Below, in pieces: positions 2 to 22,216 of a stretch of DNA of 25,306 bases. Positions within the stretch are counted from its first letter, which is position 1. Every line of letters begins with the position of its first letter. Location: the IMG/VR virus record IMGVR_UViG_3300009182_000297, positions 1-25,306 of that record; one strand, given 5' to 3'. Both the position numbers and the translations under genes were made by a program. The stretch comes from a virus. A model generated the notes under the pieces. The model was not told where the DNA came from and did not search any database. It saw nothing but the letters and a program-made list of their open reading frames with translations.

Positions 2-1360
2 GATGAAGCACAGGAAAGCAAAATACTTAGAAGCAATCAAAATATTGTTGCTGGTACTGCTTACTATTCTTTTAATCATTTCTATAAAACATGGGCGAAT
101 TATAAAAAGATAATTGAAAGTAATGGTGAAAAAAAGGCTTTAGAAGAAATTTTTCAAGGGGCAATACCAACTGGGTTTGACTGGAGAGATTATTCTATAA
201 TAAGACTTCCAGTAGAAATACTTCCTGTTGGTTTTATGGATGCTAAACAGATAACATCTGCTAGAATAAATAGTACGAAAGCAAATTATCTAATTGAGTA
301 TGGTGCTACATTTGCCACTGATTCTGATGGCTTTTTTAAACGAAGCTTAATTGAATCTTGTATTGTTGGAAAGGCAGAAAGCCCAATAAGTTTAGCAGAT
401 GGAGAAATACTTTTTCATGCTTCTTTACTTGGAGATGCTTCTGTACAACATGTTATGGCAATCGATCCAGCTTCCGAAAGAGATAACTTTGCTATAATTG
501 TATTGGCCCTACATGCAGATCATCGAAGAATAGTTTACTGTTGGACAACTAATAGAAGTGCGTTTAAACAAAAAATGAACAAAGGTATTTCAAAAGAAAA
601 AGATTTTTATAGTTATTGCTGTAGAAAAATTAGGGATTTAACTAAAGCTTTTCCAAATATGGTAAGGATATCACTCGATAGTCAAGGTGGTGGTGTTGCT
701 ATAGAGGAAGGTCTGCAAGATCCCAATAGGATCAATGAAGCAGAATCGCCAATATATAGAGTGATAGAACCTAACAAGTCAAAAGACACAGATGATAAGC
801 GTGGTGAACATATTCTTCAAATGATTAATTTCGCAGATGGTAATTGGGTATTAGAAGCAAATCATGGTCTTCGTAAAGATATGGAGGATAAAGTTTTACT
901 TTTTCCATTCTTTGATCCAGTATCAATAACTCTTGCAGAAGAAGAAGATATTGCTGCTGGAAGAAAAGAAGATTCAACAAATTTGTATGATACGCTAGAA
1001 GATTGTGTTATGGATATAGAAGAGTTAAAAGACGAGTTAGCCAGCATTGTTCATACCCAAACAATTGCTGGAAGAGATCGTTGGGATACGCCAGAAAGCA
1101 GAGATGTTGATGGTAAAAAAAATAGGATTAGAAAAGATAGGTATTCTGCTCTTTTGATGGCAAACATGATTGGAAGGATGTTTCAAAGAATTGAAGTTCA
1201 AGAAGAATACATACAAGCTGGTGGATTTGCATCAGCAGTAGAGACTAAGAACAGTGATGGACCTATGTACATTGGTCCAGAATGGTTTAAGCAAGCTACT
1301 AAGAATAGTGCTAATTATGGTACAGTTATTCCTACAAGGTGTAATAATATTTTAGAGTAA
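2..1360 (+). CDS. terL: Terminase large subunit, C-terminal part (5' end outside window)
   Basis: The reading frame is open from base 2 without a start codon, so this is the 3' part of a longer gene; the first in-window ATG (236) is probably internal. The visible 452 residues cover the end of the ATPase domain and the RNase H-like nuclease that cuts concatemeric DNA during packaging. A stretch of the type 'GATFATDSDGFFKRSLIE' is typical of terminases just before the nuclease. Candidate metal-binding aspartates are seen in 'VMAIDPASERDNFAI' (Asp at nt 464-466), 'ISLDSQGGG' (677-679) and 'RKDRYSALLMANM' (1136-1138). Walker A/B motifs must lie upstream and cannot be checked. The portal gene follows 27 nt later, the classic order. 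Packaging type (cos or pac) cannot be read from here. Confidence 0.9.
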   Translation, partial: DEAQESKILRSNQNIVAGTAYYSFNHFYKTWANYKKIIESNGEKKALEEIFQGAIPTGFDWRDYSIIRLPVEILPVGFMDAKQITSARINSTKANYLIEYGATFATDSDGFFKRSLIESCIVGKAESPISLADGEILFHASLLGDASVQHVMAIDPASERDNFAIIVLALHADHRRIVYCWTTNRSAFKQKMNKGISKEKDFYSYCCRKIRDLTKAFPNMVRISLDSQGGGVAIEEGLQDPNRINEAESPIYRVIEPNKSKDTDDKRGEHILQMINFADGNWVLEANHGLRKDMEDKVLLFPFFDPVSITLAEEEDIAAGRKEDSTNLYDTLEDCVMDIEELKDELASIVHTQTIAGRDRWDTPESRDVDGKKNRIRKDRYSALLMANMIGRMFQRIEVQEEYIQAGGFASAVETKNSDGPMYIGPEWFKQATKNSANYGTVIPTRCNNILE

Positions 1361-1387: not shown

Positions 1388-3529
1388 ATGTCAGAAGAAA
1401 AACCGTTATTTGTTACTTGGGATGAAAATGATCCAAAATCAAAAGAAGCAGCATTTGCAAAATCTGCGTATGTTGATTCACTTCATCATACTTCTAAGGC
1501 TGGTACAGCTTTTCAAAATATAGTACCCGGAAATACCTCTATTCGTGAATCATTTGATCGTAGGGATTATGACTTTTTTAGACCAGGCGAAAGCATACCT
1601 ACCTTAGAAAAAGATATTATTTCTGCATGTATGCAAGCATATGAGCGTATAGGAATAGTTCGTAATGTAATAGATATGATGGCAGAATTTGCTTGTCAAG
1701 GGATTGATCTTGTTCACCCAAATGAAAAGATACAAACTTTTTATAGAGAATGGTTTTCAAAAATAAGTGGGGCAGAAAGAACTGAGCGTATTTTAAATAT
1801 GCTTTATAGATCTGGTAATGTGATTGTAAAGAGATCAACTGCAAAGTTAAAAAACGCAGATGTTGAAAATCTACAAAAAGGTTTAGCAGCAGACATCCCA
1901 GTTGGTGAATCCATATCTGCTCCTAAAAATGAAATACCTTGGGGGTATACCATATATAACCCAGTAACCATAGAGGTTTTTGGCCAAGAATTAGTTCCAT
2001 TTCTTGGGCCAAACTCATTTAGATATGGTGTTAGGATTCCAGAATCATTGCTGAAAAAAATAAAAAATCCACAAGACACTATTGAAAAAGATTTAATCGC
2101 TGGAATTTCTTTACAGAGTTTAACATCTGTATCTCAGGGCGGGAAGGCTTTGCCTCTTCCAGCAGATAAAACTAGTGCCATTTATTATAAAAGAGATGAT
2201 TGGCAAGTTTGGGCAAGGCCCATGACATATTGCATACTTGAAGACTTAATGATGCTCAAGAAGATGAAGCTGGCAGATCTTGCAGCATTAGATGGTGCTG
2301 TTAGCCATATTCGTGTGTGGAAATTGGGTTCACTTGAACACAAGATTCTGCCAACTGAAACAGCGATAGGTCGCTTGGCAGATATGCTCATGAACAATGT
2401 TGGTGGTGGTTCAATAGATTTAATTTGGGGTCCAGAATTAGACTTTAAAGAAACATCGACTGATGTTGCAGCTTTCTTAGGTGAAGAAAAATACAAGCCA
2501 ATTTTAAACGCAATATTTGCTGGATTAGGTATACCTCCGTCTTTAACTGGGTTACCAGCAGGACAGGGTTTCTCAAATAATTATATTAGCTTAAGAACAT
2601 TGATTGAAAGACTTGATTATGGTCGTTCTTTGCTAATTGCATTTTGGGATAAAGAAATCAAACTTGTTCAACAGGCTATGGGTTTTAAAGTTCCAGCCCA
2701 AATAGTATTTGATCAACATACACTTTCTGATGAAGCTGCTGAAAAAAGATTGCTTATTGATCTTATGGATCGTGATCTTATTAGCGAAGAAGCAATTCAA
2801 GAAAGGTTTGATCTTATTCCTGAGATTGAAGCAGTTAGAAGAAAGCGTGAAATGCGTAAACGAGAAAGCAATAAAATACCTAAGAAAGCTGGTCCTTTTC
2901 ATAATCCTCAGTTTGAAGACGATATTAAAAAGATGTGGGTTCAAATGGGAGTAATGTCACCAAAAGATTTTGGTATAGATGTTCAAACGCCAGTACCTGT
3001 GGCCAATGATATTAAACCTTCTGCGGAAGACAATGCCCAAAATCCAAAAGGTATATCTGGACAAGGAAGACCAGTTGGTATTAAAGATTCTGAGAAAAGG
3101 AAAAAGAAAGTTATTGTTCCAAAAACTGCTGCAAGATTGGTAGATACAATGGCATGGGCAGAACTTTGTCAAAAAAACATATCTGAACATGTTAACGCTG
3201 CTTATTTATCTTCTTTAAATAAAAAAAACCTTAGAGAGCTTTCATCTCAAGAATTTGAAAGCCTAGAAAAAACAAAATTTCATATACTCTGTCAAATTAA
3301 AGCAGATCAAAAAGTGGACAAGGATTTAATTAAAAAGATAATATCTTCAACTATGGAGATACCATTAAAAATACGGACTATTGTTAGTGTAGCAACAAAA
3401 AAATACATAGAAAAAGAAGGTACTCAACCCAACACCGAAATGAGAAGAAAGATTGAGGCATCATCAATAGCAATATACAGAGTAAATGAGATGCCATATG
3501 AAAACAGTGATACTGATAACATTGCATAG
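1388..3529 (+). CDS. Portal protein
   Basis: This 713-residue protein directly follows the terminase and fits the portal, the dodecameric ring through which DNA enters and leaves the capsid. Portal-like features include the early helix 'ACMQAYERIGIVRNVIDMMA' (about residues 79-98), the 'RTERILNMLYRSGNVIVKR' block (about 130-150), and a central segment with 'WKLGSLEHKILP' and 'FAGLGIPPSLTGLP', which resembles the clip/stem region of SPP1- and T4-type portals. It is longer than many portals. The extra C-terminal part (from about residue 560) is Lys-rich, with a predicted disordered stretch around 'DSEKRKKKVIVPK' and then helices; its role is unknown. The ATG is preceded by AGGTG. The 3' end overlaps the next gene by 32 nt. 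The stop is TAG. Confidence 0.85.
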   Translation: MSEEKPLFVTWDENDPKSKEAAFAKSAYVDSLHHTSKAGTAFQNIVPGNTSIRESFDRRDYDFFRPGESIPTLEKDIISACMQAYERIGIVRNVIDMMAEFACQGIDLVHPNEKIQTFYREWFSKISGAERTERILNMLYRSGNVIVKRSTAKLKNADVENLQKGLAADIPVGESISAPKNEIPWGYTIYNPVTIEVFGQELVPFLGPNSFRYGVRIPESLLKKIKNPQDTIEKDLIAGISLQSLTSVSQGGKALPLPADKTSAIYYKRDDWQVWARPMTYCILEDLMMLKKMKLADLAALDGAVSHIRVWKLGSLEHKILPTETAIGRLADMLMNNVGGGSIDLIWGPELDFKETSTDVAAFLGEEKYKPILNAIFAGLGIPPSLTGLPAGQGFSNNYISLRTLIERLDYGRSLLIAFWDKEIKLVQQAMGFKVPAQIVFDQHTLSDEAAEKRLLIDLMDRDLISEEAIQERFDLIPEIEAVRRKREMRKRESNKIPKKAGPFHNPQFEDDIKKMWVQMGVMSPKDFGIDVQTPVPVANDIKPSAEDNAQNPKGISGQGRPVGIKDSEKRKKKVIVPKTAARLVDTMAWAELCQKNISEHVNAAYLSSLNKKNLRELSSQEFESLEKTKFHILCQIKADQKVDKDLIKKIISSTMEIPLKIRTIVSVATKKYIEKEGTQPNTEMRRKIEASSIAIYRVNEMPYENSDTDNIA

Positions 3530-4244
3530 AAGATACTATGAATTTGTTAATTCAATAAAAAATATTAGATCTAAAAGTATTTTTGCAGATAATTTTCCAA
3601 GCATATTTGTGGTGTGGGCAGATCCAGATCCAAGTAGATATTGGCTTTTAAATGAATTAATCGAAGATAAAATAATAGAATTATTAATAACAAGACATAT
3701 TTTACCAGGAGAAGATTTAAAAGTAGCAACAACTTTTTATGAGGCAAACAATATAAGGCTTGGTTTAGAAAATGTTTTTAGAGCTTATCCAAATTGTTTT
3801 TGCATAGTTCAAGCATCAGACATAATTATAACTGATTATGGTTTTAATTTGATGATAAATGAAATGAATCGTGGTGCAAACGGTGTTGTTTTTTACTGGT
3901 CGCCAGATGCATTTCATACAAATTGTTTTGCAATATGTAACAATAAAGATTACTGGCCTCCATTTGCAAAAAAAAATGACCCAAACATATTAGAACTATT
4001 ATGGAAAAGAAATTTAATTTTAAAAAAAGTAAAAAATTTTTTAACGGCAATGTCTAATTATAATAATATAGCTTTTGAACATCATCATATTTCAGAGAAC
4101 ATGATTCCATTTCCTATAAAATATATTCCAAAAAACACTACAATTAATTGTTATGTTTCTGGTAGTATGAGTTTTATCAAAATTGTTTTGAATTTTTTTC
4201 GGTGTATTATTTTAGGAGATTGTAATGGCAAAAATAATTGTTAA
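3498..4244 (+). CDS. Probable glycosyltransferase-like protein (GT-A-like N-terminus)
   Basis: The 248-residue product starts 'MKTVILITLHRR', like the first beta-strand of GT-A glycosyltransferases. An ATG twelve bases upstream (3486) is in frame, but 3498 gives the cleaner N-terminus. Around residues 97-118, 'FCIVQASDIIITDYGFNLM' resembles the part of GT-A enzymes that carries acidic metal/sugar contacts, and 'FYWSPDAFHTNCFAICNN' could be an acceptor-side loop. A canonical DxD is not obvious, so activity is uncertain. It sits between portal and protease, overlapping the portal by 32 nt and the next gene by 20 nt. Its codons are more AT-rich than those of the capsid genes, consistent with an accessory gene inserted into the head operon. 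It might glycosylate virion proteins. It could also be an inactive or unrelated Rossmann-type protein. Confidence 0.5.
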   Translation: MKTVILITLHRRYYEFVNSIKNIRSKSIFADNFPSIFVVWADPDPSRYWLLNELIEDKIIELLITRHILPGEDLKVATTFYEANNIRLGLENVFRAYPNCFCIVQASDIIITDYGFNLMINEMNRGANGVVFYWSPDAFHTNCFAICNNKDYWPPFAKKNDPNILELLWKRNLILKKVKNFLTAMSNYNNIAFEHHHISENMIPFPIKYIPKNTTINCYVSGSMSFIKIVLNFFRCIILGDCNGKNNC

Positions 4245-4476
4245 TTATGATACTAAAAAATCTAAATTGGAATTTTATTTTAATAATTCTGAAATAGAAG
4301 ACATATTTTCAATATTTATTTATAGGGATATAACGAACAGTTATAAATACACAATGGAAATTGTGAGCGATGACGGAAGACAAACTATAAAAAATGGCGA
4401 AATAGTATCGCACAAAAATTCTGATTTATTTTTGAAGAAATTTTTAAACGCTATTGAGGTGCAGAACAATGAATAA
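4225..4476 (+). CDS. Small hypothetical protein (83 aa)
   Basis: I do not recognise this gene. It encodes 83 residues, charged and probably beta-rich at the N-terminus ('MAKIIVNYDTKKSKLEFYF'), with no Cys, no signal peptide and no membrane segment. A good ribosome-binding site (TAGGAG, about 4213-4218) lies seven bases before the ATG, inside the end of the preceding gene. Its own end overlaps the protease start by 8 nt (ATGAATAA). The tight coupling argues that it is real and co-expressed with the protease. A role in head assembly is only an inference from position. Confidence 0.7.
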   Translation: MAKIIVNYDTKKSKLEFYFNNSEIEDIFSIFIYRDITNSYKYTMEIVSDDGRQTIKNGEIVSHKNSDLFLKKFLNAIEVQNNE

Positions 4477-5911
4477 TATAGCTATTTACAAAGCCGAAAT
4501 AGAAGATGGCCTAAAAGAAAAAATCTCTTCTAGTCTTACCATATCATCTTGTGTAGCAATAGAAGACTGCATCCCTTTTGAAGTTTCAGACTATAAGGCA
4601 ATTGCTGAAAATAAAGGACAAGTAGATCTACATTATTTAAAATCTATTCTTGTTACAACTGGTTGGAATAAAAACGATGATGTTTTTGATCGTGCAGAAG
4701 TTTGGGTGGCAAGAACTAGTCCAGAAGATAAGCCTTTTAATTATGAGCATGATCAAAGTCAAATAATTGGTCATATAACATCTTGTAATGCAATTAATGT
4801 TGATGGTAGTAAAATACCTGACGGTAGTACAATAGATGAACTGCCTTCTAAATTTCATATTGCAACATCTGCCGTTCTTTATAAGTATTGGGAAGATGCA
4901 GAAAAACAACAAAGAATGAATGAAATTCTTTCTGAAATTTCGCAAGGTAAATGGTTTGTTTCAATGGAAGCATTATTCACCGCTTTTGACTATGCAATAA
5001 TCGAAGGTGCAAATTCTAGGATTGTAGCAAGGAATGAAGAAACTGCATTTTTAACTAAATATCTTAGGTCTTATGGTGGAAATGGCGTATATAAAGATAT
5101 GAAAATTGGTAGACTTTTGAAGAACATTACATTCTCTGGTAATGGTCTTGTTCGCAAACCAGCTAATCCAGAAAGTATTATTTTTCAAGAAACAGAAGCT
5201 TTTAAATCAAATTCGGGGTATCATTTAGGTGAGACTATAGTTTCAAAGGAGATAGATAAAATGAAAGATAATGAGAATCAATTTGAGGACATGCAAAAAC
5301 AACTTGAAGACCTCAATGTTTCATTGGCTGAAGCCAATAAGAAAGTTGAAGATTTTCATGCTGAATCTGGCATGTTGAACAAAGAAAAAGAAAATATGGC
5401 CAATCAATTGGCAGAAGCTAAAAAAATGCTTGAACAAATGAAATCTTCTCATGAAGATATATCTAAAGAACTTCATACTATGAAGAAAGAGAAAAAACAA
5501 AGTGACCGTCTTTCTATGGTAATGGAAAAGATGGGCATGAATAAAGACGAGGCTATTAATGTAGTCAACTCTTTAGAAACTCTTGCGGATGAAGCTTTTG
5601 CTTCAAGCGTAAGTTATCAATCCGATTATATGAATAAAAAAATGTCTGAATATAAAAAATCTGAATCTGATAAAGATAAAACAGACCCTCTTGAATCTGA
5701 AAATCCTTCTGAAAAGAATGATCCAAATAATAAAAAAGAAGAAGATATGGAATATGATCCATCAGAAAGTAAAGCCTCAATTTCCATTTTGGATACCGCA
5801 GAAGTTAAGAATGATGCTGCTCTTGCAACTTCTGAGGTGGCTAGTGAAGTCAGGCAAGTAGCATCGCAAATTGCTTCGTATTTTGGTTTAGACAAACACG
5901 CCACAGCATAA
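4469..5911 (+). CDS. Prohead protease fused to scaffold protein
   Basis: I place the start at ATG 4469, served by GAGGTG at 4456-4461, rather than the in-frame TTG at 4454. The product has 480 residues. The first half (about 30-245) looks like a phage prohead protease of the herpesvirus-assemblin-like fold. 'NYEHDQSQIIGHI' gives a candidate catalytic His94 and 'WFVSMEALF' a candidate Ser165, in the order and approximate spacing known for HK97-type proteases. From about residue 265 the sequence turns into Glu/Lys/Gln-rich heptads (about 270-350), then a very acidic Ser/Asp/Glu/Lys linker (about 385-435) and a short C-terminal helix ('TSEVASEVRQVASQIASYFG') that could bind capsid subunits. This is the layout of a protease-scaffold fusion, and a scaffold-only product probably starts inside it. 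The decoration gene follows after 13 nt. Confidence 0.8.
   Translation: MNNIAIYKAEIEDGLKEKISSSLTISSCVAIEDCIPFEVSDYKAIAENKGQVDLHYLKSILVTTGWNKNDDVFDRAEVWVARTSPEDKPFNYEHDQSQIIGHITSCNAINVDGSKIPDGSTIDELPSKFHIATSAVLYKYWEDAEKQQRMNEILSEISQGKWFVSMEALFTAFDYAIIEGANSRIVARNEETAFLTKYLRSYGGNGVYKDMKIGRLLKNITFSGNGLVRKPANPESIIFQETEAFKSNSGYHLGETIVSKEIDKMKDNENQFEDMQKQLEDLNVSLAEANKKVEDFHAESGMLNKEKENMANQLAEAKKMLEQMKSSHEDISKELHTMKKEKKQSDRLSMVMEKMGMNKDEAINVVNSLETLADEAFASSVSYQSDYMNKKMSEYKKSESDKDKTDPLESENPSEKNDPNNKKEEDMEYDPSESKASISILDTAEVKNDAALATSEVASEVRQVASQIASYFGLDKHATA
5245..5253 (+). promoter_or_regulatory. Internal ribosome-binding site inside the protease-scaffold gene
   Basis: AAAGGAGAT lies nine bases before an in-frame ATG at 5261 and is as good as the sites in front of the capsid genes. 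Within a coding region such a match at correct spacing, exactly at the protease/scaffold boundary, is unlikely to be chance. Confidence 0.75.
5261..5911 (+). CDS. Free scaffold protein from an internal start (nested gene)
   Basis: The ATG at 5261 is in frame with the protease gene (codon 265) and has its own strong Shine-Dalgarno sequence. Translation from here gives 216 residues holding only the coiled-coil and acidic part: 'MKDNENQFEDMQKQLEDL', then heptads to about residue 85 and an acidic tail. The same arrangement is known for lambda C/Nu3, where scaffold is made from an internal start in the protease gene so that scaffold exceeds protease. That this phage uses it is inferred from the ribosome-binding site, its position and the domain boundary. 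Confidence 0.72.
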   Translation: MKDNENQFEDMQKQLEDLNVSLAEANKKVEDFHAESGMLNKEKENMANQLAEAKKMLEQMKSSHEDISKELHTMKKEKKQSDRLSMVMEKMGMNKDEAINVVNSLETLADEAFASSVSYQSDYMNKKMSEYKKSESDKDKTDPLESENPSEKNDPNNKKEEDMEYDPSESKASISILDTAEVKNDAALATSEVASEVRQVASQIASYFGLDKHATA

Positions 5912-5924
5912 GGAGAGAAATCTA

Positions 5925-6395
5925 ATGGCAATTAAACCAGACCGCTTGATTAATGAAACCGACATCTCGTTGGTTTGCAATGATGTCCACGAAAAGGGCA
6001 CAGTTCTTATTTATGGAACTGCTGCTTCTGGTGCTGGCATTGTAACCCCAGGTATTTGTGCCTATCAATCAGGTAGTCCTTCGGGCTACAAGGTTGCTGG
6101 TCTTAGCTTGGCAAACTTTGTTGACATCGATCAAACAAGAGTTCACCGTAACTTCCACAAAGACGAACAGGTAATTGGCGAAAAAGCACCACTTCTTCGG
6201 AAAGGTTATGTCATTACTAATAAAGTAACTGGCAGTCCTACCGTTGGTGATAAGGCTTATTTGACAGTTAGTGGTTTGGTAACCCCAACTATTTCTGCTG
6301 GTGGTGGTGAAGTTGCCACTCCTAGAGTTGGAACTTTTGCTGGTGCAAAAGACGAAAATGGTTATGTTAAAGTTTATGTTGAACTTCCAAACTAA
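5925..6395 (+). CDS. Probable capsid decoration / head structural protein
   Basis: A 156-residue protein encoded directly before the major capsid gene, where many phages carry the decoration (head-stabilising) protein. It is Gly/Val/Ala-rich and probably all-beta, with no Cys beyond two near the start. 'VTGSPTVGDKAYLTVSGLVTP' followed by 'TPRVGTFAGAKDENGYVKVY' resembles the beta-barrel ends seen in phage capsid-associated proteins. AAGGAG overlaps the stop codon of the protease gene and sits ten bases before the ATG. Codons are richer in C-ending forms than in neighbouring accessory genes, as in the major capsid gene, which suggests high expression. Assignment rests mainly on position and composition. 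Confidence 0.6.
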   Translation: MAIKPDRLINETDISLVCNDVHEKGTVLIYGTAASGAGIVTPGICAYQSGSPSGYKVAGLSLANFVDIDQTRVHRNFHKDEQVIGEKAPLLRKGYVITNKVTGSPTVGDKAYLTVSGLVTPTISAGGGEVATPRVGTFAGAKDENGYVKVYVELPN

Positions 6396-7784: not shown

Positions 7785-10700
7785 ATGCACTTCCAAAGAA
7801 ACATAACAAGAATACAAGATCAAGATGACTTTTCTGGAGTACCAGCCTCTGGAGAAGTTATTTCATTTGATGGGATAAACTTTTCTACATCAGATATTAC
7901 TGGATATCAAGGATCGCAAGGAAATCAGGGTATTCAAGGCATGATTGGTGTTCAAGGACATCAAGGACAAATTGGCGAACAAGGTCTACAAGGAGATCAA
8001 GGTGACCAAGGTAATCAAGGATCTATTGGTATTGGCCTTACTTTTCGTGGAGCCTATAACCCTAGTTCACAATATTATGTAAATGATGTAGTTACATATG
8101 GTGGTTCGTCTTGGATTTGCATATCAACTATTGATAGGGTTACCCCTGCGGAAAATAGTTGGTGGACAATTTTTGCTGAAAAAGGAACAACTGGATCGCA
8201 AGGATCGCAAGGATCTCAAGGAAGACAAGGTTTTCAAGGAAATCAAGGAAATCAAGGAAGACAAGGTTTTCAAGGAAATCAAGGAAGACAAGGATTCCAA
8301 GGCATTATTGGAACAACTGGAAATCAAGGATACCAAGGAATGATTGGTATTCAAGGGCATCAAGGGGAAATGGGAGAACAGGGTTACCAAGGACAAGCTG
8401 ACAGATATTCAACTTATAGTGCTGCATATACAAACATTCCATCAGTTTTTCCATTCACAGATAATATTAGTGTTAATGGTGGACTTGCCTATTCAGCAGG
8501 ACAATCAATTGTTATTGCAATTAGTGGTACTGCCTATGCAGTAGCAGTTGTAAACACTTATGACAAAGTTACTGGAATTATTAATTTTACTATTGTAGAT
8601 TCAACAGATGTTCATGGAAATCCATTTCAAGGTTTTTCATGGGGCTATGCTGTAAACCTAGAAGGTGCTGTTGGACCGCAAGGAAATCAGGGATATCAAG
8701 GATTGCAGGGTAATCAGGGCGATCAAGGAGATCAAGGTTTTCAAGGGAACCAAGGATTTCAAGGTGATCAAGGATCACAAGGCGATCAAGGAAATTATGG
8801 AAATCAAGGCGATCAAGGATGGCAAGGAAATCAAGGAAACATAGGAATTAATTATAGAGGAAATTATAATTCTTCTCTTGTTTATAATATTGGAGATGTC
8901 GTTGTTTATGATGGTCAAACCTTTTATTGCAAACAAACAGCATCGCTCGATTCCTTAATTGTTTCTGGTATCACAGGCGGTTCACTTTATAATGGCTATG
9001 GAATTTCTCAAGCTTCTGATCTGAATGGATATTATGTCAAGACATCATCTCCAGTTGGATATATGGGTGCTAGTACAAATGGTTTTAGTAACTATTATAA
9101 ATTAGCAACTAATGCTGGCGAAGTTAATGGAACTGTTTATGTTCTTGGCCCTAATAATGTTTCTAGTTATGTTGGAGATGTGCCATATCCTTTTTGGACA
9201 CTTAATTATTTATCAGACAATAAACATAGTTATTTATACAATCCTACATCTAATCCAGCAGTAGTTCCGCTTTCTGGATGGGAACAATTTTTTTCTGATC
9301 CTTTTGGTGGCACATTTGCTGGTAACATAAATTTAACTAGTGCTACATTTTCTGTTGCTTCCAGTTATCCTTATGATGGAAGCGGGTTTTGGGATTTAAT
9401 TGCAGCTAAAGGATCTCAAGGATCTCAAGGCAATCAAGGAGAACAGGGTTCGCAAGGCGATCAAGGTTCACAAGGAAGTCAGGGGGATCAAGGAAGCCAA
9501 GGAGAACAGGGGTTTCAAGGTGAACAAGGGTTTCAAGGAAATCAAGGTGATCAAGGATCACAAGGTTTTCAAGGTTTTCAAGGTGAGCAAGGCGAAAAGG
9601 GAGAACAAGGATTCCAAGGTGAACAAGGTAATCAAGGATCAGATGCGTTGTGGAATTTCACAGGTGCTTATAGTGGTGGTGCATCATATGCTGTAGGTGA
9701 TATAGCAACTTATTTAGGACAAACTTGGTATCGCATTCATTCTAATGGTGGCAATCTTGGGGATACTCCAGCAGAAGGAACTTTTTGGACATTAATTGCT
9801 CAGAAAGGTGACCAAGGTTATCAAGGTCAACAAGGTTTACAAGGCAATCAGGGCGATCAAGGTTTCCAAGGTGAACAGGGATTACAAGGCGATCAGGGTC
9901 ATCAAGGATTTCAAGGTGAACAGGGTTTTCAAGGCAATCAAGGCAATCAAGGAGATCAAGGAAATCAGGGTTATCAAGGCGATCAGGGATCGCAAGGAAA
10001 TCAAGGTTTTCAAGGTGATCAAGGCGAGCTTGGAACTGGTGCATTGTCTTGGACATACAAGGTAAACACAACAACTCTTACAGATCTTGATCCTACTAAT
10101 GATTATATAAGTTTTAATGCTGATCCTTTTACTTCGGCTACTCAAGTTAAAGTAGATGATAATCCATACGGATTAAATACTACCCTACATGATTTATTCT
10201 TAAGTATTCAGAGTGGTTATTTAACTCTAACAAATCAAGCCAATCCTTCAACATATGTTACTTATCAAATAACTTCTTGCGTAGATGGTACTGCAACAAA
10301 TGATACTATTGATGGAAGTTATGTAATATTTAATGTGACACTAGTCAGTACATATGGAGTAATAAACAATGAAGACTTTGTTACTCTATCTATTGGAATT
10401 GTTGGTCCGCAAGGAGATCAAGGTTTTCAAGGCAACCAAGGCGATCAAGGTTATCAGGGCATAAATAGAGGCATATATACTGCAAGTCCAACTGCTCCAT
10501 TATCGCCAAGTGCTGGTGATATGTGGTTGGATACAACGACAGGCATTATATACATATTTATATATGATGGCGTTACTGGAATTTGGATTCAACCTGTTGG
10601 ATCTATAGGGGCACAAGGTTATCAAGGAAGACAGGGTGCTGGTTTTCAAGGAAGTCAGGGATTGCAAGGTTTACAAGGATTACAAGGATTTCAAGGGTAT

Positions 10701-13448
10701 CAAGGTTTTCAAGGAAACCAAGGGTATCAAGGTTTTCAAGGAAGACAGGGAAATCAAGGATATCAAGGATCTTTAGGCACAATTGGCTTTCAAGGGAATC
10801 AAGGCGAGCAAGGAAATCAAGGCGAGCAAGGCTATCAAGGTCGCCAAGGTTACCAAGGATTTCAAGGTCAACAGGGTTATCAAGGTGAACAAGGAGAACA
10901 AGGTTATCAAGGCGAAGTTCCATTTGCGTACATAGGCACTTGGTCTTCATTAGCAACATATATTTTAAATGATGCGGTTACATATCAGGGTTCATTTTAT
11001 CAATTAATAAATATTGGAGCTTGGTCATTAGGCTCTTCGCCACCAAATAATGGTTGGGGATTATTAGTATCTAAAGGTGATCAAGGTTATCAAGGAAGTC
11101 AAGGCGATCAAGGTGAGCAAGGTGAGCAAGGTGAGCAAGGATATCAAGGTCGCCAAGGATTAAAAGGTGATCAAGGATATCAAGGATTAAAAGGCGAACA
11201 GGGTTATCAAGGTTATCAAGGGTATTTTGGGTTACAAGGATCTCAAGGTTTACAAGGAAGACAAGGATATCAGGGTGATCAAGGAAATCAAGGAGATCAG
11301 GGTTATCAAGGATATCAGGGTTATCAAGGAAATAGGGGATACCAAGGATTTCAAGGAGAACAAGGTTTTCAAGGATTTCAAGGAGAACAAGGTGATCAAG
11401 GAAATAGGGGCAATCAAGGCTTTCAAGGTATTCAAGGATCTCAAGGTTTTCAAGGAACGCAGGGAAATCAAGGAAATCAAGGATATCAAGGTTTACAAGG
11501 AAGACAAGGTTTGCAAGGCAATCAAGGTTTTCAAGGAGTTCAAGGAAGTCAAGGTATTCAAGGATATCAAGGGCAACAAGGTTTTCAAGGTTTTCAAGGT
11601 TTTCAAGGTTTAATAGGCAATCAAGGATTTCAAGGAATTCAAGGGTATAGGGGCTATCAAGGTTATCAAGGTCAAACAGGTTCTGGTGTTAGCATTAAAG
11701 GCTCTGACACTTGGGAACATATATTTAATGTTCAAACTTATAGTGCTACTGTTGGTGATGTTTGGATAATTACAGATACGGAACAAGGAACTGCAACAGA
11801 AGGATGTCCAAATCCATACATTGGTATTGCAAACATTGGAAACGGTTTAATATACACTGGAAACCCACCCAAATATTGGCAGAATGTTGGTTTTATTAGA
11901 GGTCCACAGGGCTATCAGGGAATTCAAGGTAGACAAGGATTTCAAGGAAACCAAGGGGATCAGGGTAGGCAAGGAATTTATGGAAATCAAGGTGATCAAG
12001 GATTCCAAGGTGTTCAAGGAAGTCAAGGCACTATTGGTCTTCAAGGAAGGCAAGGTAATCAAGGTATTCAAGGATCTATTGGTGAACAAGGATATCAAGG
12101 TAGACAAGGTTTACAAGGAATAATTGGATCTACTGGAGCACAAGGTTTTCAAGGTTCTCAAGGAACAAATGGAAGTCAAGGTCTTCAAGGTCTTCAAGGA
12201 AGTTTTGGAAATCAAGGATACCAAGGAGTAACTGGTGGCACTGGATCACAAGGTTCTAGTGGCACAAATGGCTCACAAGGATATCAAGGATACCAAGGAT
12301 TAGTTGGTGTTCAAGGATCTCAAGGTTTTCAATCTAGTGGATCAGTAACATCTGTATCATTATCTGTACCAGCCATATTTAGTATTTCTGGTTCAAATCC
12401 AGTTACTACTGCTGGTGGATTTACTGTAACTCTAGTTAGTCAATCAGCAAATACTGTTCTTGCATCACCAAATGGTTCTACTGGTGTTCCATCATTTAGA
12501 GTTTTAGTTCCTGCCGATATACCCACACTTAATCAAAATACTACTGGTGTGGCCACAACAGCGATAAATATTTCTGGTGGTGCAGCGGGGCAAATATCAT
12601 ATCAAACTGGTTCTGGATCAACAGCTATGCTTGCTGCTGGAACTAGTGGGCAAATACTTAAGTCAAATGGTTCTGCTGCTCCAGCTTGGATAAATCAAAA
12701 TACAATTATTGCTGGTGGATTATCATCAACTTTAACTGTTGGCTCTGGTGGAACTGGACTTGCATCTGCTGGAACAATTGGGAATGTTCTTACAAGTGAT
12801 GGCACAAATTGGAAAAGTTTACCAGCAGCAGTTTCAACTCCAACTGGATCAATAATTGCTTTCGCTGGTAGTTCTGCTCCTGATGGATGGTTACTGTGTG
12901 ATGGCACAGTTTATACTAGAGCATCTTATGTCACATTATCTAATCTGATACAATCAAACTATGGTGGCAATGGAACTACTACATTTGCTGTGCCAGATTT
13001 AAGAAGCAGAACAATAATAGGAACTGCTGGAACTAATGTAAATGCAATGCCAGTTGGTTCAAATGGGGTTTCTTTAACCCCTAGAAGTTTAGGCAATGTT
13101 GTTGGTGCAGAAAATCATCAACTTTCAGTAAGTGAATTGGCTCAACATAATCATTCTATATATGATCCAACTCATCGTCACAGTGGTCGTACTGGCGATG
13201 ATAGTCCTGATCATAACCATCAACAAGCTAGTTTTCAAGGTTCATTTACTTTAGGATATGGTGTTTATGATACTATGAATTCAAGAAGTAGCGGTCAACC
13301 GTATACTGGTGGTGCTAATACTCGCCATCAACATAATTTTTTCACAGACTATGTTGCCACAAATATAACCATACAGAACAATGGTCAAAGTATACCACAC
13401 AACAATATGCAACCTAGTATAGCCATAAATTACATAATAAAGACATAG
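7785..13448 (+). CDS. Giant collagen-like tail fibre with CBM-like modules and tail-collar tip
   Basis: This 1887-residue protein has a short unique N-terminus (1-39, probably virion attachment), then nine Gly-X-Gln collagen-like stalk segments separated by globular modules. Four modules (about 85-131, 354-543, 621-675 and 1045-1098) share 'Y...Y..(G/N)D(V/I/A)..Y.G' followed by a Trp-containing end ('WWTIFAEKG', 'FWDLIAAKG', 'FWTLIAQKG', 'WGLLVSKG') and resemble carbohydrate-binding CBM5/12. Two other beta domains lie at about 206-293 and 753-873. Modules at about 893-940 and 1300-1373 recur in neighbouring genes. The C-terminus (about 1518-1687) is a generic fibre shaft; it is followed by a phage tail-collar domain ('FAGSSAPDGWLLCDG', about 1691-1705) and a tip with several HxH motifs ('HNH', 'HRH', 'HQH') that could bind metal as in T4 gp12. 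It should form a very long flexible trimeric fibre that binds surface glycans. Ribosome-binding site: TTGGAG. Confidence 0.85.
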   Translation: MHFQRNITRIQDQDDFSGVPASGEVISFDGINFSTSDITGYQGSQGNQGIQGMIGVQGHQGQIGEQGLQGDQGDQGNQGSIGIGLTFRGAYNPSSQYYVNDVVTYGGSSWICISTIDRVTPAENSWWTIFAEKGTTGSQGSQGSQGRQGFQGNQGNQGRQGFQGNQGRQGFQGIIGTTGNQGYQGMIGIQGHQGEMGEQGYQGQADRYSTYSAAYTNIPSVFPFTDNISVNGGLAYSAGQSIVIAISGTAYAVAVVNTYDKVTGIINFTIVDSTDVHGNPFQGFSWGYAVNLEGAVGPQGNQGYQGLQGNQGDQGDQGFQGNQGFQGDQGSQGDQGNYGNQGDQGWQGNQGNIGINYRGNYNSSLVYNIGDVVVYDGQTFYCKQTASLDSLIVSGITGGSLYNGYGISQASDLNGYYVKTSSPVGYMGASTNGFSNYYKLATNAGEVNGTVYVLGPNNVSSYVGDVPYPFWTLNYLSDNKHSYLYNPTSNPAVVPLSGWEQFFSDPFGGTFAGNINLTSATFSVASSYPYDGSGFWDLIAAKGSQGSQGNQGEQGSQGDQGSQGSQGDQGSQGEQGFQGEQGFQGNQGDQGSQGFQGFQGEQGEKGEQGFQGEQGNQGSDALWNFTGAYSGGASYAVGDIATYLGQTWYRIHSNGGNLGDTPAEGTFWTLIAQKGDQGYQGQQGLQGNQGDQGFQGEQGLQGDQGHQGFQGEQGFQGNQGNQGDQGNQGYQGDQGSQGNQGFQGDQGELGTGALSWTYKVNTTTLTDLDPTNDYISFNADPFTSATQVKVDDNPYGLNTTLHDLFLSIQSGYLTLTNQANPSTYVTYQITSCVDGTATNDTIDGSYVIFNVTLVSTYGVINNEDFVTLSIGIVGPQGDQGFQGNQGDQGYQGINRGIYTASPTAPLSPSAGDMWLDTTTGIIYIFIYDGVTGIWIQPVGSIGAQGYQGRQGAGFQGSQGLQGLQGLQGFQGYQGFQGNQGYQGFQGRQGNQGYQGSLGTIGFQGNQGEQGNQGEQGYQGRQGYQGFQGQQGYQGEQGEQGYQGEVPFAYIGTWSSLATYILNDAVTYQGSFYQLINIGAWSLGSSPPNNGWGLLVSKGDQGYQGSQGDQGEQGEQGEQGYQGRQGLKGDQGYQGLKGEQGYQGYQGYFGLQGSQGLQGRQGYQGDQGNQGDQGYQGYQGYQGNRGYQGFQGEQGFQGFQGEQGDQGNRGNQGFQGIQGSQGFQGTQGNQGNQGYQGLQGRQGLQGNQGFQGVQGSQGIQGYQGQQGFQGFQGFQGLIGNQGFQGIQGYRGYQGYQGQTGSGVSIKGSDTWEHIFNVQTYSATVGDVWIITDTEQGTATEGCPNPYIGIANIGNGLIYTGNPPKYWQNVGFIRGPQGYQGIQGRQGFQGNQGDQGRQGIYGNQGDQGFQGVQGSQGTIGLQGRQGNQGIQGSIGEQGYQGRQGLQGIIGSTGAQGFQGSQGTNGSQGLQGLQGSFGNQGYQGVTGGTGSQGSSGTNGSQGYQGYQGLVGVQGSQGFQSSGSVTSVSLSVPAIFSISGSNPVTTAGGFTVTLVSQSANTVLASPNGSTGVPSFRVLVPADIPTLNQNTTGVATTAINISGGAAGQISYQTGSGSTAMLAAGTSGQILKSNGSAAPAWINQNTIIAGGLSSTLTVGSGGTGLASAGTIGNVLTSDGTNWKSLPAAVSTPTGSIIAFAGSSAPDGWLLCDGTVYTRASYVTLSNLIQSNYGGNGTTTFAVPDLRSRTIIGTAGTNVNAMPVGSNGVSLTPRSLGNVVGAENHQLSVSELAQHNHSIYDPTHRHSGRTGDDSPDHNHQQASFQGSFTLGYGVYDTMNSRSSGQPYTGGANTRHQHNFFTDYVATNITIQNNGQSIPHNNMQPSIAINYIIKT
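8845..9412 (+). other. CBM-like module with a large internal insertion
   Basis: The module starts normally ('YNIGDVVVYDGQTFYC') and ends normally ('FWDLIAAKG'), but about 135 residues (nt about 8943-9380) are inserted where the sister modules have about 15. The insert has its own pattern (NGYY, YYKLA, VNGTVYVL, FWTLNY, SYLYNPTSNP, GWEQFF), which resembles a 'vNGtY...Y...W...Y...P..W' domain of phage fibres. It looks like one domain inserted into another. Confidence 0.5.
11683..11902 (+). other. Shared module D (copy 1), also in the 676-aa stalk protein
   Basis: Residues about 1300-1373 read 'SDTWEHIFN', 'GDVWIITDTEQGTAT', 'CPNP', 'IGNGLIYT' and 'YWQNVGFIRGPQG'. The 676-aa protein has a clear copy at 14218-14432 ('SDSWQNVFN', 'HDVWVLTDVSQGTAT', 'CPDP', 'IGDGLIHT', 'YWKNIGQIRGPQG'). 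Each copy is framed by collagen-like stalk, so the module moves as a unit. Function unknown. Confidence 0.7.
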
Positions 13449-13458
13449 GATATATGAT

Positions 13459-15489
13459 ATGCCAATAAATTTTCCTGACGATCCACACTTGGGTGACATA
13501 TACACATTTGGTGAAAGATCATGGGAATACAATGATATTGGTTGGATATCTATAGGTATTCCTGGACCACAAGGTGATCAAGGTTCACAAGGAAATCAAG
13601 GGAATCAAGGTTTTCAAAGTACTCAAGGTGAACAAGGTTTTCAAGGTTTTCAAGGTTTTCAAGGCCATCAAGGAATTCAAGGAAACCAAGGAAATCAAGG
13701 CTTTCAAGGAGATCAAGGTTTTTTAGGTGAAATAGGTGTAACTGGATTTCAAGGATTTCAAGGATTTCAAGGGTATGGTGAACAAGGATATCAGGGAGAT
13801 CAAGGTAGTCAAGGAGATCAAGGAGATCAAGGAGATCAAGGAGATCAAGGCGATCAGGGTTTAAATGGCTCTTATGGAAATCAAGGATATCAGGGCAATC
13901 AAGGTAATCAAGGGATTTATGGTAATCAAGGAGATCAAGGATTTCAAGGATTAAAAGGAGATGTTGGTGATCAAGGAAGTCAAGGCATTTTTGGATTACA
14001 AGGATTTCAAGGACATCAAGGCGTTGTTGGAACTACTGGAAATCAAGGTAGCCAAGGATCAAATGGCAGTCAGGGAGATCAAGGAAATAAAGGAGAACAG
14101 GGCGATCAAGGTTATCAAGGATTAGGTAAACAAGGCGAACAAGGTTATCGTGGTTACCAGGGCGATCAAGGAAATCAAGGAGATCAAGGAAATCAAGGTA
14201 ATGTAGGGTATGGTTCTGTAATCATAGGTTCTGACAGTTGGCAAAATGTATTCAATGATGAAACTCTTGGGGCTATCTTGCATGATGTTTGGGTATTAAC
14301 AGATGTAAGTCAAGGCACTGCAACATACCCATGTCCTGACCCAAGTGGTCGAGTTGCTGCTATTGGTGATGGATTAATACATACAAATACTTCTCCTACA
14401 TATTGGAAAAATATTGGACAAATCAGAGGTCCACAAGGAGATCAAGGCGAACAAGGTCAACAAGGTTTAACTGGAGAAAGAGGGTATCAAGGATACCAAG
14501 GAGAGCAAGGGGATCAAGGTTTTCAAGGAAATCAAGGTTATGATGGTTTTCAAGGAAGTCAAGGATTACAAGGTTTTGAGGGTAATCAGGGTAGACAAGG
14601 AATTAAAGGAGATGCTGGAGAATGTGAATGTGTAATTACAACTCCAATGCCATCAGGATCAGGAGAGCAGGGAGATCAGGGAGCAATAGGAGCACAAGGA
14701 TCAAGAGGCTTGCAAGGGTTTCAAGGATCACAAGGATCACAAGGTGCTCAAGGCTATGGTTTGCAAGGCCAGCAAGGTCAACAGGGATCACAAGGAGCAC
14801 AAGGTTATGGTTCACAGGGATCGCAAGGTTCACAGGGTTCAACTGGAACAGGCACACAAGGATCTCAAGGTCATCAAGGCATTGTTGGAACCACAGGTTC
14901 ACAGGGAAACCAAGGTGTCGTAGGCACAACTGGCAACCAAGGCTCGCAGGGTTTCCAAGGTGTCGTTGGAACTATTGGGTCGCAAGGCAATCAAGGTTAC
15001 CAAGGCGTTGTTGGAACCACAGGAAACCAAGGTTTACAAGGATTGCAAGGCACAGTTGGAACCACAGGATCACAGGGTTTGCAAGGATTTCAAGGTGTAA
15101 CTGGAACAGGTAATCAGGGTAGCCAAGGATCACAAGGTTTTCAAGGAGTTGTTGGCACAACAGGAAACCAAGGCAATCAAGGATATCAAGGTGTTGTTGG
15201 CACAACAGGAAACCAAGGCAACCAAGGAGTCGTTGGAACAACTGGTTCACAAGGTTTTCAAGGAGTCGTTGGAACAACTGGATCGCAAGGATTTCAAGGA
15301 ATTGTTGGAACCACAGGCTCACAGGGCAATCAAGGCTTTCAAGGCATCGTTGGAACCACTGGAAACCAAGGTGCAACTGGAACAGGAAGTCAGGGTTATC
15401 AAGGATATCAAGGTGTTGGAAATCAAGGATATCAAGGATATCAAGGGTCTTCAGCAACTATATCTACAATAGACGGAGGTAGTTTCTAA
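13459..15489 (+). CDS. Collagen-like stalk protein without a recognisable tip
   Basis: This 676-residue protein begins with a 30-residue module ('FPDDPHLGDIYTFGERSW...GW') that recurs at the end of the 425-aa protein and in the 49-aa mini-gene. Gly-X-Gln stalk runs from 36 to about 253, then shared module D (about 254-325), more stalk, a break containing 'GECECVITT' (about 387-395), and a second stalk rich in 'GTTG(N/S)QG' and 'GTGNQG' units (about 405-660). It ends with 'ATISTIDGGSF'. No collar, beta-helix or enzyme domain closes it, which is odd for a fibre. The next gene starts on the base after its TAA, in the same frame, and begins with a beta-helix domain. The two may therefore act as stalk and head. 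A second copy of module D at 14218-14432 links it to the 1887-aa fibre. Confidence 0.82.
   Translation: MPINFPDDPHLGDIYTFGERSWEYNDIGWISIGIPGPQGDQGSQGNQGNQGFQSTQGEQGFQGFQGFQGHQGIQGNQGNQGFQGDQGFLGEIGVTGFQGFQGFQGYGEQGYQGDQGSQGDQGDQGDQGDQGDQGLNGSYGNQGYQGNQGNQGIYGNQGDQGFQGLKGDVGDQGSQGIFGLQGFQGHQGVVGTTGNQGSQGSNGSQGDQGNKGEQGDQGYQGLGKQGEQGYRGYQGDQGNQGDQGNQGNVGYGSVIIGSDSWQNVFNDETLGAILHDVWVLTDVSQGTATYPCPDPSGRVAAIGDGLIHTNTSPTYWKNIGQIRGPQGDQGEQGQQGLTGERGYQGYQGEQGDQGFQGNQGYDGFQGSQGLQGFEGNQGRQGIKGDAGECECVITTPMPSGSGEQGDQGAIGAQGSRGLQGFQGSQGSQGAQGYGLQGQQGQQGSQGAQGYGSQGSQGSQGSTGTGTQGSQGHQGIVGTTGSQGNQGVVGTTGNQGSQGFQGVVGTIGSQGNQGYQGVVGTTGNQGLQGLQGTVGTTGSQGLQGFQGVTGTGNQGSQGSQGFQGVVGTTGNQGNQGYQGVVGTTGNQGNQGVVGTTGSQGFQGVVGTTGSQGFQGIVGTTGSQGNQGFQGIVGTTGNQGATGTGSQGYQGYQGVGNQGYQGYQGSSATISTIDGGSF
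14218..14432 (+). other. Shared module D (copy 2)
   Basis: Residues about 254-325 of the 676-aa protein. Conserved positions with copy 1 include SD.W, .FN, DVW..TD..QGTAT, CP.P, IG.GLI.T, P.YW.N.G.IRGPQG. Both copies end with the same Gly-Pro-Gln entry into the following stalk. Confidence 0.7.
15019..15074 (+). repeat. 56-nt perfect direct repeat, copy 1
   Basis: Bases 15019-15074 are identical to 16918-16973, including third codon positions, although the copies lie in different genes. The copies are 1899 bases apart, a multiple of three, and both genes share one frame. Confidence 0.85.
15475..15480 (+). promoter_or_regulatory. Ribosome-binding site encoded by the Gly-Gly end of the 676-aa protein
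   Basis: GGAGGT, coding the Gly-Gly of the C-terminus '-DGGSF', is nine bases before the ATG at 15490. It is a perfect Shine-Dalgarno core and supports independent or coupled initiation at 15490. The same device occurs at 20326-20331, 20475-20480 and 20920-20927. Confidence 0.8.
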
Positions 15490-18400
15490 ATGGCAGATAC
15501 AACGATCAATGTAACCTCAACATCTGATTCGGGTGCTGGAACGCTTAGGCAAGCAATTACAGACCTCAATGCAATTGTTGGTTCGCACACGATTACTTTT
15601 ACTGGACTAACAGGTACGATCACGCTTGCATCAGCATTGCCAACACTTACAAAAAGCACGACCATTACTGGGCCTGGATTAAGCTCACTTACAATTTCTG
15701 GCAACAGTCTTTATAGAGTTTTTGATTTAACTGCTGGTTTAACATTTTCTATTTCAGCACTAACAATAGCTAATGGAAAAGCAACCGCAGCGGGTATATA
15801 CAACAATATGGGCGGTGGTATTAGAAATGGAACTAACAGCGGTGGTGCTGATCTTACTATAAGTAATTGTTATTTTACTGGGTGTAACGCTACAATTGGT
15901 GGTGCAATATCAAGTTATTCAAATGTAACAGTTACTAATACTTCTTTTGTAAGTAATACTGGAAATGCTTCTTGTATAAATATGACTGGTGGAACTTCTA
16001 TAATAGGCAACTGTACATTTTATAATAACACCGGTCTTGCGGTTAATGCACAAAGTACAAGCACAATTTATAATTCTACATTTAACGGAAATTCTTCTTC
16101 TAGTATTAGTGCTATAAAGTTTTATCTACATGGAAGTGCCTCATTATTGTCTAGCACAATATCTGGAAATGCTAGTGGATCTGGCGGTTACTCTGGTGCT
16201 GTTTATTTGGGCGAATACTGTACTCTTACCCTTAAAAATACAATCATCTCTGGTAATACTGGTACTTCAGATTTTAATTCTTACAATGACGATCGTAGCA
16301 TAGCTTCCGCAGCATCGAACATTATCGGAACTATTTCTTCTGCATCTGCTACTAGTGCAGCAAGAGTAATTGGCGATCCCCTCCTTAGTGCCATAGCAAA
16401 TAATGGTGGCTCGACTTTAACAATGGCTGTTGGTGCTGGAAGTCCTGCCATTGGTGCTGGTAACGCTACGGCATCAAACGCATCCCCTGTTAGCGGATTA
16501 GATCAAACAGGGGCTACACGATCAGCAACAACCCCAACAATTGGGGCGGTTGAGTATGTTGCGGTAACAACTACCACTACAACAGCAGCACCTACTACTA
16601 CTACTACAACGACTACTGCTTCGCCTACAACAACAACAACAACGACTACGACTACAGTAGCACCAGTTATTATAAAAATAAAAAGATCTAGCACATCTTC
16701 TTCTGTTCCTGCCACACTCTCATTGGGTGAATTAGGGATAAACATAGTAGATAAAAAAATATGGGTGGGAAATTCAAGTCAGACTCCTGTTCTTATTTCA
16801 GATTATAACAATCTAGGCAATCAAGGATTTCAAGGAAGTCAAGGAAATCAAGGAGTTCAAGGCAATCAAGGTGCAGCAGGAAATAATGGATCTCAAGGTT
16901 TTCAAGGCTTAACAGGAACAGGAAACCAAGGTTTACAAGGATTGCAAGGCACAGTTGGAACCACAGGATCACAAGGCTTACAAGGTTTACAAGGTGTTGT
17001 AGGAACCACAGGTTCACAGGGCAACCAAGGTAACCAAGGTGTCGTAGGCACAACAGGAAATCAAGGCTCACAAGGTTTCCAAGGAGTCGTTGGAACCACA
17101 GGCAATCAAGGATTGCAAGGCACAGTTGGAACAATAGGGAATCAAGGTTTACAAGGATTGCAAGGTACAGTTGGAACCACTGGAAATCAAGGTGCAACTG
17201 GAACAGGAAATCAAGGCTCACAAGGAAATCAAGGATTTCAAGGAATTGTTGGAACCACAGGATCACAGGGTTCGCAGGGTTTCCAAGGTGTGGTTGGAAC
17301 AACAGGAAATCAAGGTTCACAAGGAACAGCGGGAACTAATGGATCTCAAGGTTTTCAAGGTGTCACTGGAACAGGCAACCAAGGTAGCCAAGGATCACAA
17401 GGTTCAACTGGAACAGGAAATCAAGGTTTGCAAGGAAACCAAGGTTTTCAAGGTATATCAGGAACAGGAAATCAAGGTAGCCAAGGGTCACAAGGTTCAA
17501 CAGGAATAGGGAATCAAGGTAGTCAAGGACCACAAGGTTTTCAAGGAGTTGTTGGAACAACAGGAAACCAAGGCAATCAAGGATTACAAGGCGTTGTTGG
17601 AACCACAGGTTCACAGGGCAACCAAGGTTATCAAGGTTACCAAGGATCTGTAGGATCGCAAGGCAATCAAGGCGATTCAGGACATCGAGGCGATGAAGGA
17701 GGCCAAGGCGATCAAGGCGATCAAGGATATCAAGGTTTCCAAGGTGTAACAGGAACAGGCAATCAAGGATCACAAGGATCACAAGGTGCAACTGGAACAG
17801 GTAGTCAGGGTAGCCAAGGCAATCAAGGTTTTCAAGGTGTCACTGGAACAGGCAATCAAGGTAGCCAAGGGTCACAAGGTGCAACTGGAACAGGCAGTCA
17901 AGGTTCTCAAGGAAACCAAGGGCTTCAAGGTTTAACTGGCCCAGTGGCTGGATCTGCAAATCAAGTTGTGTATAAAGACTCAGGCAATGCTGCTGCTGGC
18001 TCTTCGAGCTTTACTTTTGATGGCACAACAGTAACTGTTCCAATACTCTCAGTTACTAGAACGGCTGGCACAGGAACACAAAGTCCTTCAGTAACTATTA
18101 CTGCTCCTGCCCATACCGCTTTGACTGCTTCTACAGAATCTAATGATTTAAATATAAATTTGGCAAGAACTGCTCAATTTGCAACTGGTGCTTTAACTAC
18201 TCAAAGAGCAGTTAGAATACAAGCTCCAACTTATAGTTTTGTTGGTGCTAGTACATTAACTACGGCAGCTACAGTCCAGATTGATTCAGCCCCTGTTGCT
18301 GGAACTAATGCGACTATAACAAATGCTATCGGGCTAAGAGTTTCAACTGGAGTTGATGCTGGAGTTGGTATAGTAATTCAAGGATCTTCTAGTCAATCAG

Positions 18401-21658: not shown

Positions 21659-22216
21659 ATGTTAAATCATTTTAGTGTTTCTAATATGCAAGCTATTTCA
21701 AATGATCCAAACGATATTGGAAACTCATATCAAATAGCAATTGTTCAATCAGATGCTGATGGTTCAAATAAAACCAATGTTTATAAAATAAGAAACACAG
21801 AAGATATTTCTGCTAAAATAGATGAGCTTGCTTCTTTATTGTTAAGCTATTCTCCACTTGCTGATACATTAGAGTTAGCAAAACATAAAAAATTAAATGA
21901 CATTAATAATGAATGGCTTGCATTAGAAAGAACTGGTTGGGATTCTGGTCAAGGCTATTATCTTGGCATTACCCCCTCTGATGTAGCACTTCTTGTAGGT
22001 GTGTTCTCTCTTGCAAAAGAGGCAGCAGCATTGGGCTTAGAACTTCCTCACCTAATCAGTATGGCTAATACACCTATTAGCTTCTCCACCATACAAGAAA
22101 TGACCATGCTTCTTCTCCAATATGGCCAAGCTCGCTCCAATATGGCTAGTTCCTTTGCTGCCAGACGAAAAGCTGTTGCTGATGCTATTACTATAGAAGA
22201 GGCTAATGCTGCGTAA
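21659..22216 (+). CDS. DUF4376-like protein, possible fibre assembly factor
   Basis: The 185-residue protein begins with a short beta-rich part (1-50) and continues as helices. 'LAKHKKLNDINNEWLALERT', then 'YYLGITPSDVALLVGVFSLA' and 'SFSTIQEMTMLLLQYGQAR', follow the general layout of DUF4376, a domain often encoded right after tail fibres and sometimes in fibre-assembly proteins. The C-terminus is an Ala/Arg-rich helix. AAGGAG overlaps the upstream stop region and sits six bases before the ATG. The gene ends overlapping the GNAT gene start (TAATG). Position after two collar-type fibres supports a chaperone or small fibre component. The family assignment is from pattern memory only. Confidence 0.6.
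   Translation: MLNHFSVSNMQAISNDPNDIGNSYQIAIVQSDADGSNKTNVYKIRNTEDISAKIDELASLLLSYSPLADTLELAKHKKLNDINNEWLALERTGWDSGQGYYLGITPSDVALLVGVFSLAKEAAALGLELPHLISMANTPISFSTIQEMTMLLLQYGQARSNMASSFAARRKAVADAITIEEANAA

Follow-up and report, generated by a model that had tools for sequence, protein, structure and literature searches.

The window analysed here is a whole virus record of IMG/VR, IMGVR_UViG_3300009182_000297, with a length of 25,306 nt. A reading frame starting from the ATG at 4469 stays open for 480 codons up to the stop codon at 5909–5911. An in-frame ATG at 5261–5263, which encodes residue 265 of the 480-aa protein, is preceded by AAAGGAGAT at 5245–5253, in which GGAG occupies 5248–5251, leaving a spacing of 9 nt to the ATG; 216 codons run from this ATG to the stop codon in the shared frame. 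The first-pass annotation had claimed a strong internal ribosome-binding site with an in-frame start for a 216-aa product inside the 480-aa gene, and its coordinates and lengths are right. The predicted pairing with the 3′ end of 16S rRNA amounts to -8.7 kcal/mol at the internal site versus -6.9 kcal/mol at the gene's own start, as calculated with what we take to be the anti-Shine–Dalgarno letters. The use of Shine–Dalgarno (SD) sequences is inferred from the starts of the phage genes. The features of the locus are listed in Table 1.

Table 1. Features of the protease–scaffold locus and its neighbours in the window
Feature	Position	Strand	Basis
Terminase large subunit (TerL), C-terminal part	236..1360	+	Full-length homologues in L030 and L033 match terminase families
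Portal (weak assignment)	1388..3529	+	L012 homologue matches phrog_30703 portal, E 0.0011; position after TerL
Full gene, predicted protease–scaffold fusion, 480 aa	4469..5911	+	Open frame, ATG start; full-length IMG/VR homologues
Predicted protease domain, residues 1–241	4469..5191	+	AF2 models; VIA T4 gp21 Z 9.8/9.5, then herpesvirus proteases; His94, Ser165
Disordered linker holding the internal ribosome-binding site	5192..5260	+	pLDDT < 50, residues 242–268
Internal SD AAGGAG, 9 nt 5′ of ATG	5246..5251	+	Sequence; GGAG in 218/222 homologues listed
Nested in-frame gene, predicted scaffold, 216 aa	5261..5911	+	ATG conserved
Long helix, residues 268–355, predicted coiled coil	5270..5533	+	AF2; mostly coiled-coil matches in PDB and Pfam
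Conserved C-terminal helix, residues 458–471	5840..5881	+	AF2; conserved end in alignment A1
Decoration/cement protein	5925..6395	+	phrog_563 virion structural, E 5.4e-5; Phage_cement, E 0.0016, below curated cut-off
Major capsid protein (MCP), 330 aa	6413..7405	+	phrog_3922, E 0.003; Bacillus phage G major head protein

In the 227 loci compared, including the window's own copy (L081), the genes are arranged, where matched, in the order of TerL, portal, one or two accessory genes, fusion, cement and MCP. TerL, which has a phmmer match in 164 of the 227 loci, can be assigned firmly by way of its full-length homologues. The portal copy of the window has no family match in PHROG or Pfam. The MCP is weak by sequence, with E-values from 0.003 to 1.5e-5 for the window and its homologues, and the window protein shares 20.9% identity with the major head protein of Bacillus phage G (E 3e-5). 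Its N-terminus ahead of the conserved core is short with no evident delta-type domain, which would suit a separate scaffold rather than one fused to the MCP. Two frames in the gap between portal and protease (3486–4244 and 4225–4476) have no Pfam or PHROG match, and phmmer matches to them are found in 35 and 25 of the 227 loci, respectively. Further downstream, the window encodes three giant collagen-repeat tail-fibre-like proteins of 1887, 676 and 1189 aa (7785–19059), the first of which carries a CBM_5_12 module and a Collar domain, and an acetyltransferase-like gene (22216–22680; phrog_3810, E 4e-6).

A full-length AlphaFold2 (AF2) model built on the 46-member alignment A1 consists of a folded first part up to around residue 241, with the last protease strand at 221–228, a linker of pLDDT below 50 (residues 242–268), a long helix (268–355), additional helices up to residue 399 and, after a disordered stretch, a final helix (458–471). 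The linker differs in length and sequence between relatives. Met265 thus lies between the last protease strand and the long helix, and the first-pass annotation had correctly placed the internal ATG at the junction of the protease and the coiled coil. When the protease part was modelled alone (63 sequences), the mean pLDDT was 86.9, and the best VIA match of this predicted model was T4 gp21 (Z 9.5, rmsd 3.6, 143 residues aligned), as it was with the whole model (Z 9.8). The best 37 of 50 VIA rows were all T4 gp21 or herpesvirus capsid proteases, the next row having a Z of 4.4. Foldseek against viral models (BFVD) gave 90 matches at E ≤ 1e-3, several of them named prohead protease; plain Foldseek against PDB gave no match at E ≤ 0.001, and its first 14 rows were herpesvirus proteases. 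His94 and Ser165 are conserved in 176/176 and 175/176 aligned rows, respectively, and by this conservation they fit a candidate catalytic pair. Pfam provided no convincing protease-family match for the fusion, and a PHROG family named peptidase (phrog_20590) matched 1 of the 46 members weakly (E 0.0019), distant families being apt to escape such searches. Sequence-library searches with the fusion returned mostly coiled-coil noise and nothing named with confidence. From the models, the first domain is predicted to be a capsid maturation protease with the fold of T4 gp21 and the herpesvirus proteases.

The predicted 216-aa product has a mass of 24.4 kDa and a pI of 4.73 and contains neither Cys nor Trp. 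It has the properties by which a scaffold may be recognized, being a coiled coil, mostly helical, acidic and encoded ahead of the MCP, and the short form is 175–269 aa long in the 214 complete genes among the matches listed. The conserved C-terminal helix (458–471) may be a capsid-binding tip. No match in sequence or fold names the coiled-coil part as a scaffold, and it might be argued from the lack of a naming family that the short product is made for some other purpose, for example as an internal or minor head protein. This is unlikely considering the place of the gene between portal and MCP, the length range, the coiled coil, the acidity, the shortness of the MCP N-terminus, which shows no evident delta-type domain, and the precedents in lambda and Mu described below. 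Anatomy and gene order thus suggest a scaffold role of the short form.

Relatives were collected by eight scans of IMG/VR, one of which gave none, and from GTDB genomes. Several of the IMG/VR scans gave at least 80 loci each; the loci do not amount to a complete census, and all counts of relatives here are among the matches listed. One query peptide in each of two scans overlaps the junction (one of six in the first scan); another scan was queried with only two peptides, and its 80 loci are free of junction bias because both queries lay in the protease domain. A protease-domain profile detected 325 open frames from 324 sources including the window, 222 of which were distinct among the matches listed, and the site was scored when GGAG ended 4–12 nt upstream of an in-frame ATG located at the junction. 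Such a site was found in 218 of the 222 distinct homologues listed, many of which are close relatives. The exceptions are a gene on a contig that ends 13 codons past the protease domain (L056), both halves of a gene split by a transposase gene (L232) and a partial homologue that matches only positions 74–130 of the profile (L233). The first-pass annotation had named relatives that keep the coding frame and lack the site as evidence against its proposal; the site is present in every one of the 218 intact genes extending to the junction, and no intact gene without it is present among the 222 distinct homologues listed.

At such a distance, GGAG precedes only 20 of 2084 other in-frame ATGs in the 218 homologous genes, while its spacing to the internal ATG is 6–12 nt in all 218 (among the matches listed). 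The internal start codon is ATG in 218/218 in a scan that sought ATG only, and in 174/174 in an earlier scan that allowed GTG and TTG as well. In the aligned internal column, GGAG accompanies 166/166 ATGs, whereas the best internal columns of the portal and TerL reach 36/142 and 22/91, and the real starts of cement and MCP have GGAG in 73/153 and 74/116, respectively. The portal column is an observation in its own right: the internal in-frame ATG with GGAG at alignment column 489 might have arisen by chance from codon usage, or it might be a partial nested start. The median pairing energy in 174 genes is -8.45 kcal/mol at the internal site, -7.1 at the gene start and -1.7 at other in-frame ATGs. 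The internal site pairs more strongly than the own start in 124 of these genes, equally in 1 and more weakly in 49, so that the SD alone does not guarantee an excess of the short form.

The GTDB matches are from bins of Gemmataceae, Flavobacteriales, SAR202 and Planctomycetia and from the Limnoglobus roseus chromosome; those in bins may stem from prophages or from viral contigs that were binned along. The site is kept in L229, L230 and L231, three of the five GTDB loci, and is missing from the other two (L232 and L233). In the L. roseus locus (L232, 6001–8389), the fusion homologue is split by an HTH frame and a DDE_3 transposase frame, presumably an IS630-like insertion, and its scaffold part is short and without GGAG. 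This locus looks like a degraded prophage. A group I or II intron was considered for the insertion and rejected, since there was no Rfam match and Pfam gave the DDE_3 transposase.

The codons in which GGAG is embedded differ among relatives. Among the matches listed, GGAG is read in phase 2 in 133 and in phase 0 in 85 of the 218 genes. All 133 phase-2 genes spell the Glu as GAG, a codon that makes up 21.9% of the Glu codons in the rest of these genes, and the preceding codon always ends in G whatever residue it encodes (Lys, Gln, Arg, Glu, Met or Trp). Phase-0 genes have GGA GAA or GGA GAT/GAC, and thus Glu is replaced by Asp in 25 of the 85. The spacing tracks the phase, being 6, 9 or 12 nt in phase 2 and 8 or 11 nt in phase 0. 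On a quick tree of the protease domain from 112 representatives, which has many weak forks, at least 3 changes of phase and at least 32 changes of the encoded residue pair occurred with no loss of the site; on an earlier tree of 90, the phase changed 2 times. On this sequence evidence, it is the nucleotides of the GGAG motif that are conserved, while the residues they encode vary. The residue following the internal Met is Ser or Ala in 203 of the 218 genes, versus 8.3% after 2084 other in-frame ATGs. Ser and Ala as the second residue are typical of true N-termini that lose Met.

Conservation of both the ATG and the second residue is not expected of a pause site or a relic. The SD comes directly after the folded domain in the AF2 model, and it might slow ribosomes at the domain boundary to aid folding of the protease without any initiation. 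Pausing does not need an ATG kept at 6–12 nt in 218/218 intact genes, nor Ser or Ala after it in 203/218, and this explanation is highly improbable. That the site is the old start of a once separate scaffold gene, now neutral after gene fusion, is hardly credible; protease and core are indeed separate elsewhere, as with gp21 and gp22 in the account of T4 in a passage of PMC9958956, but the site is never lost on the tree despite at least 32 residue changes, and the control columns argue against retention of such motifs by chance.

Another explanation places the selection on the protein. The conserved Glu might be a maturation cleavage site between protease and scaffold, with GGAG as a by-product of its codons. 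The T4-like cleavage motif is I/L-x-E. Ile or Leu is found two residues before the acidic residue in 39 of 80 phase-2 representatives, and Ile in 23 of 32 phase-0 representatives, against a background of 12.7% for Ile plus Leu. A cleavage site would not, however, account for the exclusive use of GAG in phase 2 (background about 22%), the G-ending preceding codon across Lys, Gln, Glu, Arg, Met and Trp, or the conservation of the ATG and of its distance; Asp replaces Glu in 15 of the 32 phase-0 representatives, and the window itself has S-K-E. As the sole explanation, cleavage is very unlikely, although a cleavage site and an SD could coexist. A doubtful extension is that the junction carries two codes, its nucleotides serving both as the SD for the scaffold and as an I/L-x-E/D site at which the protease would cut itself loose from the scaffold tail. 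The Ile two residues before the acidic residue in phase 0 is always encoded by ATA (23/23 versus a background of 25%), and together with the Ile preference this looks as if both codes were kept; the S-K-E of the window junction lends such a reading no support. If it were true, one motif would set both the synthesis ratio and the release. Internal initiation at the nested ATG is strongly supported by its conservation.

The short form might also be translated from its own transcript made from an internal promoter. In herpesviruses, the short scaffold form UL26.5 arises from such a transcript, whereas the window has an internal SD, and both the protein architecture and the protease fold (UL26/UL80a) are common to the window and herpesviruses. 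The region 4300–6000 contains 3 promoter-like sites versus 6.7 expected from shuffled sequences, in a scan that covered promoters other than phage-type ones; the sole site on the + strand is at 4615–4643, and none lies just upstream of the internal start. An SD would be required in either case, and an internal promoter is very improbable.

Collectively, the locus is very probably one gene with two translation starts on one mRNA, which would yield a protease–scaffold fusion and an excess of the nested scaffold. Ribosomes starting at the ATG at 4469 would synthesize the 480-aa protein, in which a flexible linker connects the protease to a coiled-coil scaffold tail, while those starting at 5261, directed by its own strong SD, would synthesize only the 216-aa coiled coil. 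This short form would be the bulk scaffold that shapes the procapsid, and the long form would be a minority that brings the protease into the procapsid through the same tail, the two copolymerizing via the common coiled coil. After assembly, the protease would degrade the scaffold, giving DNA room to enter. Production and excess of the short form, and digestion of the scaffold by the protease, are what the gene layout and the known systems lead us to infer. The T4 head core is described in a passage of PMC9958956 as containing about 580 gp22 to about 55 gp21 protease, a ratio of the kind that a nested start could supply. Removal of the scaffold by the protease is described for herpesviruses (in part of PMC4379554).

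The first-pass annotation likened the arrangement to lambda C/Nu3, and the comparison is apt: the predicted protease, the coiled-coil second part and the gene order agree. As in the window, lambda has a protease–scaffold fusion in which an in-frame scaffold start is nested (in lambda at residue 239 of 439), and the decoration protein and the MCP come next. Lambda C is annotated as an S49-family peptidase, which is another fold, unlike the gp21/herpesvirus-type fold predicted for the window. The predicted SD strengths are also reversed, since in lambda the C start is stronger (-12.0 versus -6.9 kcal/mol for nu3). C and Nu3 are named as the lambda protease and scaffold in a passage of PMC3224144. 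Mu I/Z is equally close, the scaffold start being nested in the protease gene; as a control, Mu Z has GGAG before its ATG (-7.4 kcal/mol), and the Mu record annotates Z as 'start site internal to gene I'. A tblastn search with the window fusion revealed no sequence relation to Mu. The Mu-like Pseudomonas aeruginosa phage PaMx73 has a putative internal start with an SD at the same relative place (described in part of PMC4378225); that start is a Val codon, whereas here it is ATG in 218/218 of the matches listed. In T4, whose gp21 is the best fold match, gp21 and the core protein gp22 are separate proteins (as treated in part of PMC9958956), unlike the single fusion gene here. Bacillus phage G (L228) has a distantly related MCP, and its gp19 is a BFVD fold match to the fusion model. 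This protein is 300 aa long and, unlike the window fusion, has no long coiled-coil extension, so that this phage could serve to study fission or fusion of the two parts, protease and scaffold; hhalign of A1 against phage G gp19, gp20 and gp21 was not significant.

A tblastn search of 50,697 phage records gave no match to the fusion protein (E 1e-5), and in phage records none was obtained for the L071 homologue (E 0.01), the window portal or the TerL part. The lineage appears to be a large family of uncultured phages without close cultured relatives. Its identity with the RNA-polymerase-encoding Caudovirales treated in part of PMC7481178 was considered and dropped, because PF00623 was found in 0/10 virus records, which are possibly fragments; the 2 matches among 12 records were both in cellular genomes. 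The tail sheath family PF04984 was likewise found in 0/10 virus records. Among open-licence PMC papers, the lambda and Mu-like precedents were found and this lineage was not. The nested protease/scaffold arrangement is thus already known, and the novelty, as far as these searches show, lies in the lineage and in how strong the evidence is.

One would expect a gene caller to list a single 480-aa protein at such loci and to overlook the scaffold. The retention of the SD across changes of codon phase provides a clean argument, from sequence only, for internal starts. The present locus would add a large uncultured lineage to the phages that set the protease:scaffold ratio by a nested start, and would join the nested-start trick of lambda and Mu to the protease fold of T4 and herpesviruses.
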